A DNA stretch of 64,000 nt from Martelella radicis (lineage in GTDB: Bacteria > Pseudomonadota > Alphaproteobacteria > Rhizobiales > Rhizobiaceae). This document shows positions 19,285 to 31,337 of this stretch, piece after piece (the stretch's first letter is position 1; each line of letters begins with the position of its first letter). The stretch lies in NCBI RefSeq assembly GCF_014196625.1, contig NZ_JACIDZ010000007.1:1-64000 (forward strand), given 5' to 3'. The notes under the pieces are model-generated. The model was given only the letters and a program-made list of their open reading frames with translations. It had not been told where the DNA came from and ran no database searches. A program made the position numbers and the translations under genes.

Positions 19285-19384
19285 CCGGGAGGCTGGTGGT
19301 GGACGTGCCACTCGCCAACCGGGTCAGGTCCGGAAGGAAGCAGCCCCAACGAGTTGTGTACGGGTCATCGTGCCGGTCTCCCAC
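19285..19384 (+). ncRNA. ffs: Signal recognition particle RNA (4.5S, small bacterial type)
   Basis: The conserved domain IV is present: GGTCAGGTCCGGAAGGAAGC starting at 19322 holds the Ffh-binding symmetric and asymmetric loops and the GGAA tetraloop. The terminal helix pairs 19287-19291 (GGGAG) with 19378-19382 (CTCCC). Length near 100 bases fits the alphaproteobacterial small form. Together with Ffh it targets nascent membrane proteins to FtsY. It lies directly upstream of ybaK and dnaX, a familiar neighbourhood in rhizobia. The ends are approximate to a few bases. Confidence 0.95.
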
Positions 19385-30256: not shown

Positions 30257-30481
30257 TTACCGCTTTTTGCGCGACGGGACGAGACCCTCGCGCTGAAGCT
30301 GCTTGCGCTTCAACTTGCGCAGGCGGCGTACGGCCTCGCCCGCTTCACGGTTACGCTTTTCCGAAGGCTTCTCGTAAGAACGACGCGCACGCATCTCGCG
30401 AAAGATGCCTTCGCGCTGCATTTTCTTCTTCAGGACGCGAAGCGCCTGATCGACATTGTTATCTCTTACCAGTACCTGCAA
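30257..30481 (-). CDS. rpsU: 30S ribosomal protein S21, TTG start
   Basis: A 74-residue bS21 protein ([18 protein letters not shown] start, basic C-terminus). It assists base-pairing between the anti-Shine-Dalgarno end of 16S rRNA and mRNA. The reading frame begins with TTG at 30481, with AAGGAGG five bases before it. There is no ATG or GTG that would preserve the conserved N-terminus. S21 copies in rhizobia often respond to cold, and here the gene lies just downstream of cspA with only a terminator between. Confidence 0.93.
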
Positions 30482-30560
30482 GAAAACCTCCTTGTTCCTG
30501 TTTCATTTTATCCGCCCGTCCCCCGCGCATGCCCGTAACCGGGCGCGCAGGAGCAAGGCG

Positions 30561-30590
30561 AAAACAAAAAGGCCGGGAAATGACCCGACC
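30561..30590 (-). terminator. Terminator of the cspA transcript
   Basis: On the minus strand GGTCGGG (30590-30584) pairs with CCCGGCC (30577-30571), including one G-U pair, and is followed by TTTTTGTTTT. It closes a 3' region of about 140 bases after the cspA stop. Confidence 0.85.
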
Positions 30591-30598
30591 TCCTCTGT

Positions 30599-30630
30599 TG
30601 TCACTGCCAGTACATCCGTGGTCAGCGACA
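30599..30630 (-). ncRNA. Structured 3'-region element, copy 2
   Basis: On the minus strand the 21-base repeat (30624-30604) folds as CTG/CAG and CCA/TGG pairs with one bulged A and a 9-base loop CGGATGTAC. The flanks extend the stem by a G-U pair and GTC/GAC. Compared with copy 1, the outer pairs differ but pairing is kept, which supports a real RNA structure on this strand. Confidence 0.6.
30604..30624. repeat. 21-base direct repeat, first unit
   Basis: A perfect 21-base direct repeat starting CTGCCAGTACATCC is present here and at 30690-30710, 86 bases apart. Both units lie between the cspA stop codon and its terminator. Confidence 0.95.
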
Positions 30631-30684
30631 GCGATGACAAATTACATCGGGCTTGAAACGACGAATAATTTTCGTCTTGCACGA

Positions 30685-30716
30685 TCCGGCTGCCAGTACA
30701 TCCGTGGTCAACCGGG
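30685..30716 (-). ncRNA. Structured 3'-region element, copy 1
   Basis: The same bulged stem and CGGATGTAC loop as copy 2, here closed by CCGG/CCGG and a U-G pair. It begins about 12 bases after the cspA stop. Between the copies a third hairpin pairs GACGAA with TTCGTC (about 30661-30677). The loops contain GTAC, which is self-complementary, so the two copies could kiss. Whether this is part of the cspA mRNA or a separate small RNA cannot be told. Confidence 0.6.
30690..30710. repeat. 21-base direct repeat, second unit
   Basis: Identical to 30604-30624. The bases immediately flanking the two units differ. Confidence 0.95.
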
Positions 30717-30727
30717 AAAGCAAATCA

Positions 30728-30937
30728 TCAAGCCGCCTGAAGGTTGTCGGCCGCGCTCTTTCCAGAGCGATTGTCGCGGACAATGTCGTAACGAAGCTTC
30801 TGCCCGTCATTCAGCGACTGCATACCAGCGCGCTCCACGGCAGAAATATGCACAAACACGTCCGTGCTGCCATCATCAGGCTGGATAAAGCCAAAGCCCT
30901 TGGTGGCATTGAACCATTTGACGGTGCCATTATTCAT
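30728..30937 (-). CDS. cspA: Cold shock protein (CspA family)
   Basis: A 69-residue single cold-shock domain with RNP1 KGFGFI (about residues 13-18) and RNP2 VFVHI (27-31). It binds single-stranded RNA and DNA and acts as an RNA chaperone. The ATG at 30937 has AAAGGAAA upstream. The 3' region is unusually long and structured (two repeat stem-loops) before a strong terminator, and rpsU follows on the same strand. Confidence 0.95.
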
Positions 30938-31337
30938 AACGATTTCCTTTCAAACGTCGTGACTTCCGCAATACCTCGCGGAATTAGATCGATTTTGAGA
31001 GGAAATCAGACGGAGCCATAAGGCTCTCGGACAACGTCGCAAGCAATGGTCGATGACGCTGATATAGGCGCTTGCCTGCCATATTGCAATGGCAGAGGCG
31101 GAATTAACCCATTTGGCGCGGACGGCCTCTTGCTCCGGCACACGCCTTTTCGCGATCCGGTTCCGCAGAAAACATCACATGATAGCATAAGGATCATATA
31201 TACAGACGCTAACCTTTCTGCCCGCGGAGACAGGCGAATAGGCCTTATTCGATCAGCCCAAAAGGCTTCCGCGATTGTAACGAAAACGATTTTCGGCTAT
31301 CGCCCCACAATGATCTCAGCAACTGAAGACCGCCCCG
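30938..31337. promoter_or_regulatory. Divergent region between cspA and the AsmA gene
   Basis: No gene is supported. Two hairpins stand out: GAGCC (31013-31017) with GGCTC (31022-31026), and CTGCCA (31076-31081) with TGGCAG (31090-31095). The first may lie in the cspA 5' untranslated region, as cold-shock genes often have long structured leaders. The rightward AsmA promoter is not obvious. Confidence 0.4.

Follow-up and report, generated by a model that had tools for sequence, protein, structure and literature searches.

A bulged-A hairpin of cold-shock mRNA tails is twinned in Martelella and retained at two loci without csp

In the window analysed here, the whole 64,000-nt (64-kb) stretch of a Martelella radicis contig, a gene for a 69-amino-acid cold-shock protein, cspA, lies at 30728..30937 on the minus strand (open reading frame of the VKWFN...GFIQP type; PF00313, 84.7 bits) and is followed on the same strand by rpsU, encoding ribosomal protein S21 (30257..30481; PF01165, 74.5 bits). 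The 246-nt intergenic stretch carries, in the order of the RNA, a hairpin just past the cspA stop codon (hairpin 1), a variable spacer, a second hairpin, an intrinsic terminator and the rpsU ribosome site. A csp-rpsU operon of Sinorhizobium meliloti has reportedly been published. A possible cspA promoter, TTGCAA-N17-TATATC (31061..31089, minus), was read from the sequence by eye; a consensus promoter scan missed these hexamers, and TATAT is present in 11 genus loci. The cspA leader segment GATTTCCTCTCAAAATCGAT (30988-31007, minus) shows, by eye, few changes at most in 10 of the 11 genus loci, among them a csp-less one (G276). A strong GC hairpin of variable sequence within the genus stands at 30500-30557 (minus), between the terminator and the rpsU ribosome site. 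The sole Rfam match in the window at standard cut-offs is a bacterial small SRP RNA (RF00169, 62 bits) at 19288-19384 on the plus strand.

The twin hairpins are built on a direct repeat, CTGCCAGTACATCCGTGGTCA, which is exact at 30604-30624 and 30690-30710, 86 nt from start to start, just as an earlier note on this DNA had described for two identical 21-nt units. On the minus strand both units fold, again as claimed, into the same bulged stem and loop: hairpin 1 (30686..30715; found by fold and covariance model) has a bulged-A stem and the loop CGGAUGUAC, and hairpin 2 (30600..30629) carries the same loop and inner stem on another outer stem. UGACCACGGAUGUACUGGCA is common to the two, stem 1 reading CCGGUUG-A-CCA / UGG-CAGCCGG and stem 2 GUCGCUG-A-CCA / UGG-CAGUGAC. 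Each stem contains one G-U pair that becomes an A.C mismatch on the opposite strand, and the intergenic stretch folds better on the minus strand (z -6.1 against shuffles, 0/200) than on the plus strand (z -2.65, 1/200), in line with the strand-specific structure first proposed. The terminator that had been noticed behind the twins is present both by fold and by terminator scan (GGUCGGG...CCCGGCCUUUUUGUUUU; 30563..30593, minus), with CCCGGCCTTTTT found in 11 genus loci. A third hairpin between the twins is indeed predicted within the A/U-rich spacer (30660..30676, minus), but it is not conserved among the 11 genus loci. The differing flanks, read at the outset as compensatory changes, are weak evidence when taken from two copies of one locus; across species, covariation is strong.

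Under relaxed limits, hairpin 2 and the terminator are matched by the Rfam family ar35 (RF02346) at 30675-30562, with 40.7 bits and an E value of 4.5e-6; this lies below the gathering cut-off of 45 and is the best ar35 score in the whole genome of the organism. The core is identical in the alignment. Both the second stem-loop of ar35 with its GGAUGUA loop (GACCaCGGAUGUACuGGC in the Rfam consensus) and the 3' terminator stem that follows it are present in the window, and the variable first stem-loop aligns to the spacer with mismatches. From the name, the equal length of 144 and the same loop, we infer that smrB35 (SmelB053) of S. meliloti is represented in Rfam by ar35. In the accessible text of Reinkensmeier 2011 (PMC3927594), a GGAUGUA-loop hairpin with a terminator is described in the sRNA SmelB053 and in 33 rhizobial 3'UTRs, 29 of them at cold-shock genes, and the window has this arrangement too, with hairpin and terminator directly behind cspA on the same strand. 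The element can thus be assigned to a known family, contrary to the original view, and its identity as an ar35/SmelB053-type hairpin is, in our judgement, close to certain. SmelB053 stands alone as an sRNA gene, has a promoter of its own and contains a single hairpin of this kind, whereas the window has two hairpins behind a coding gene. The csp 3'UTR group, in those parts of PMC3927594, has one hairpin, is reported for Rhizobiales and includes no twin or csp-less form. According to the available portion of PMC2780559, SmrB35 is a detected transcript, 139 nt long as given by the mapped 5' end and the terminator, and rises about 4-fold with luteolin. The cspA 5' thermoregulators RF01766 and RF02762 also belong to cold-shock mRNAs, but comprise the 5' end and part of the coding region and have another sequence; in the window RF01766 reaches 42.9 against a cut-off of 78.

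An ar35 scan of 20 related loci placed nine at or above the cut-off of 45, five with csp directly upstream (L011, L012, L019, L028 and L035) and four without (L016, L032, L053 and L063). Six gave a match below 45 (L013, L051, L010, L020, L055 and L060), and five had none at E 0.05 (L074, L015, L042, L044 and L046). Because five of the nine passing loci have csp directly upstream, the Rfam label of 'sRNA' takes in mRNA tails too.

The repeat is widespread in relatives. Allowing one mismatch at most, 225 of 297 family genomes contain a 17-mer of it, spanning 85 of 109 genera with up to 12 copies each, and chance occurrence is excluded because the reversed pattern is found in about 20 of the 297 by row count, with one or two copies each. 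Across the class the 17-mer (at most one mismatch) is present in 12 of 289 genomes. Besides M. radicis itself there are 11 such genomes, 10 of which represent other orders, since they are labelled as sharing the class only; nine of the 11 have a csp frame ending about 75 nt or less upstream. All seven exact class matches are csp-linked, the two without csp being one-mismatch copies. Across the phylum, an exact 18-mer was found in 17 of 299 genomes, all within Alphaproteobacteria, and by row count in none of the 213 sampled genomes outside the class. Carriers among the matches listed include Rhizobium, Mesorhizobium, Ensifer, Bosea, Rhodoplanes, Ancylobacter, Pleomorphomonas and Aureimonas. Several orders of Alphaproteobacteria thus carry the element, for the most part still downstream of csp genes.

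Covariation was measured in 80 distinct csp-linked hairpins out of 98, with 18 near-duplicates left out; since the motif search had set the inner 18 nt, the outer stem alone was free to show covariation. The outer stem scores 0.386, against 0.138 +- 0.013 in shuffles (0/500) and a maximum of 0.142 when slid; 86.8% of its cells are paired (71.1 shuffled, slid maximum 51.1), and 144 cells are changed on both sides, compared with 63 in shuffles. Pairs changed on both sides show no excess in this set (6 vs 5.9 shuffled), and further pair types do not differ clearly either (26 vs 23.5 shuffled, a value reached by 36 of 500 shuffles). The innermost varying pair is UA in 67 hairpins, CG in 12 and GU in one, and is unpaired in none of the 80; partner swapping across 285 copies is concordant with the covariation. 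Pairing deduced from a single locus thus finds support in homologues. A covariance model built from the 80 hairpins, the two of the window among them, picks out just those two sites in the 64 kb (E 4e-11 and 1.5e-10). Elsewhere in the M. radicis genome it gives no convincing hit: among the 150 candidates scored, out of 2101 from a first look, the next best has E 0.09.

A check of the core free of motif bias came from 30 loci picked by Pfam score among the matches listed: the element stands at five of their 40 csp genes, each time with CACGGAUGUACUG exact and twice with a different lower stem, and the remaining 35 genes resemble shuffled sequence, with at least seven mismatches. A loop, bulge and inner stem that stay constant above an outer stem that covaries would be expected where a protein recognises the hairpin, or where the loop acts as a seed. 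The self-complementary GUAC of the loop, to which attention had been drawn at first, is probably not essential, as eight of the 18 one-mismatch copies among the matches listed change precisely its U; on the same changes, kissing GUAC loops were rejected as an essential feature. Variants were also seen. One locus (L045, about position 1500, minus) has its closing G-C pair turned to C-G with bulged A and loop intact, and two others (L331 and L345) have a variant hairpin, GUCACGGAUGUACUGGC, behind csp, in which the loop is unchanged and the lower stem and bulge are rearranged.

Among 287 distinct copies (325 before duplicate removal), drawn from pools that were chosen for the motif and are therefore motif-biased, 152 have a same-strand csp frame that ends no more than 200 nt upstream: 65 of 118 and 49 of 68 in two sets of genome loci, and 38 of 101 in viral-contig loci. 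Most csp-to-hairpin distances at these 152 are 22-30 nt. The genome of M. radicis has the element at one of its three single-domain csp genes and lacks it at the other two. A restriction of the hairpin to VKWFN-type csp genes was considered and is ruled out by 33 VKFFN genes among the 152. In the 30 Pfam-picked loci none of the 28 csp genes of GFIT/GFIK type carries it, and 5 of the 12 others do (0/28 and 4/11 once duplicates are dropped); two GFIT genes with the element are found in the motif-biased pool. A terminator follows 37 of 111 csp-linked and 49 of 71 other bacterial copies, and 22 of 38 and 43 of 63, respectively, in viral contigs, with an upstream control of 1; all of these counts are lower bounds, as the crude pattern misses stems containing T.

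Within the genus, the motif is present in 13 of 13 genomes, with 42 copies at 31 sites. Eleven of these sites, in 11 of the 13 genomes, are twins with hairpins 81-87 nt apart. Matching by hand places 27 of the 31 sites 29-40 nt downstream of a PF00313 match; the four without csp are two free-standing copies (G161:C22 and G299:C1) and two twins (G276:C2 and G081:C34). The contigs of these two twins have no PF00313 match, and no csp frame lies upstream of either, but both loops are exact and the terminator, rpsU and, by eye, the promoter-like hexamers are still in place. G276 also retains pieces of the leader and a ten-residue csp-like end (E 0.11). For ar35 the two loci score 33.0 and 32.9 bits, under the cut-off. 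An alignment of 11 loci has, outside rpsU, near-fixed blocks at the -10-like TATAT, both hairpin cores, the terminator and the ribosome site, with the spacer and outer flanks variable; in one genome, G300, a single loop base of hairpin 1 differs. Retention of the twin after loss of csp suggests, from sequence comparison, that the RNA itself has a job. The two loci could instead be young and still decaying; yet their loops are intact, with the former csp region largely deleted or unrecognisable.

Outside Martelella, two loci (L036 and L038, around position 1500, minus) have the hairpin about 520 nt upstream of rpsU with no csp frame detected upstream, possibly further cases of csp loss. A second twin, 67 nt apart, was seen in a Rhizobium MAG (L196, 1059 and 1126, plus). 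In the openly accessible articles searched, we found neither a twin described nor a hairpin that outlasts its csp gene. What is new here is the covariation, the spread to other orders, the genus-wide twin and the loss of csp with hairpins kept.

The hairpin is also found behind other genes and alone. Single examples follow genes for S21 (L081), DUF892 (L096), GST (L136) and CsbD (L239 and others), and free sRNA-like units occur as well; the initial proposal of a strand-specific RNA element of the cspA 3' region holds, with a conserved structure and free sRNAs among its relatives. At least 120 stretches from viral contigs contain the 18-mer, with host-type genes such as CsbD among its neighbours; one viral-contig unit used as a query of a phage collection gave seven weak matches, none covering 80%, and a role of these copies in phage biology is doubtful. 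Among the 62 viral-contig copies without csp, 22 have GGAAC-N15-18-GTT within 200 nt upstream (3 for the reverse complement, 1 for a shuffle), and 21 of these 22 motifs lie at 50-51 or 68-69 nt. The general-stress (EcfG-type) promoter has a similar form. The motif stands upstream of 0 of 112 bacterial and 0 of 37 viral-contig copies linked to csp, and of 1 of 71 other bacterial copies. Free-standing units of hairpin and terminator with GGAAC-N-GTT were seen in varied contexts with host-like genes alongside (L277, 12498-12632, minus; L208; L286). No host lineage was found for such copies in 151 family genomes (one with a match) or in plasmids (six weak matches).

Several explanations may be weighed for what the hairpin does. 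Were it a module acting in cis only, hairpin and terminator would shield the csp mRNA from exonucleases and tune termination before rpsU. Such a stability role would account for the csp-linked copies and agrees with the position between csp stop and terminator and with rpsU lying at most 1.4 kb downstream of 32 of the 152 csp-linked copies (twin copies counted singly); any hairpin would suffice for it, yet the loop is fixed, and the element persists without csp and as free units, so we rate it as distinctly unlikely. Its survival without csp suggests that the hairpin is more than a guard of the csp mRNA. Alternatively, the loop (GGAUGUA) could be the seed of a trans base-pairing sRNA that targets mRNAs and has the csp 3'UTR as a source, for which speak the invariant loop, the several copies per genome, the free-standing relatives with terminators and, in the accessible text of PMC2780559, the detection of SmrB35 as a transcript. 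We consider this rather unlikely, given that 7-mers antisense to the core number 20 in 144 csp leaders, against 20.4 +- 5.3 in rough shuffles and 41 for a reversed control, and so show no enrichment, and that a seed has no need of a constant bulged A and CCA/UGG stem.

Two further explanations name a protein partner. The available text of Reinkensmeier 2011 (PMC3927594) proposed an Hfq-dependent stability element, interceptor sRNAs and RNase decoys, drawing a parallel with the 3' end of cspA in E. coli (section 2.5). This seems very unlikely, as SmrB35 gave no signal in an Hfq-FLAG co-immunoprecipitation in which four other Smr RNAs were positive, although SmrC7 and SmrC14 were likewise without signal and the authors, in the part of PMC2848018 at hand, allow for low affinity. 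A true Csr/Rsm element, bound by CsrA through the GGA of the apical loop, is scarcely credible. In its favour, the loop resembles the CsrA consensus, and RF00166 (PrrB_RsmZ) gives a weak match of 16.5 bits (E 0.26), under a cut-off of 44. CsrA (PF02599) was found in none of 21 genomes, that of M. radicis included, by a search that in a control matched 3 of 14 known genomes, and on this ground a CsrA ligand was rejected; the accessible text of PMC7143759 also describes rhizobial genomes as without recognizable CsrA-like homologues. The sponge RNAs CsrB and RsmZ therefore serve as a works-like analogy only, in having repeated GGA-in-loop hairpins on mRNAs and sRNAs, and differ in that no CsrA was found here and no Csr/Rsm covariance model matches the window at its cut-off.

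With CsrA not found, Hfq doubtful, csp leaders not enriched and the hairpin surviving without csp, we infer that an RNA-binding factor is to be favoured. Our preferred reading, which we hold at slightly less than an even chance, is that the hairpin is a docking site for a putative factor common to csp mRNA tails and free sRNAs. On this view a trans-acting factor would recognise each hairpin, the likeliest candidate being an RNA-binding protein that reads the bulged A and the 9-nt loop. Against it, no protein partner was found in the present analysis, and many csp genes lack the element. In cis, the factor would control how the csp transcript decays or is processed at its 3' end, and possibly also read-through into rpsU. 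In trans, fragments of the 3' end and copies that stand alone would compete for the same factor as putative decoys.

What reads the hairpin described in 2011 is now approachable with a 30-nt bait; the csp-less loci are natural cases of gene loss in which the RNA stands alone. More broadly, and as a tentative possibility that we hold to be less than likely, CsrA-less Alphaproteobacteria may possess their own, independent counterpart of the Csr/Rsm system. In it, one putative RNA-binding protein would recognise bulged-A hairpins with the loop CGGAUGUAC, both on free sRNAs and in the tails of stress mRNAs, those for cold shock included, and csp 3' tails could become stand-alone sRNA genes upon gene loss, as may have happened in two Martelella species.
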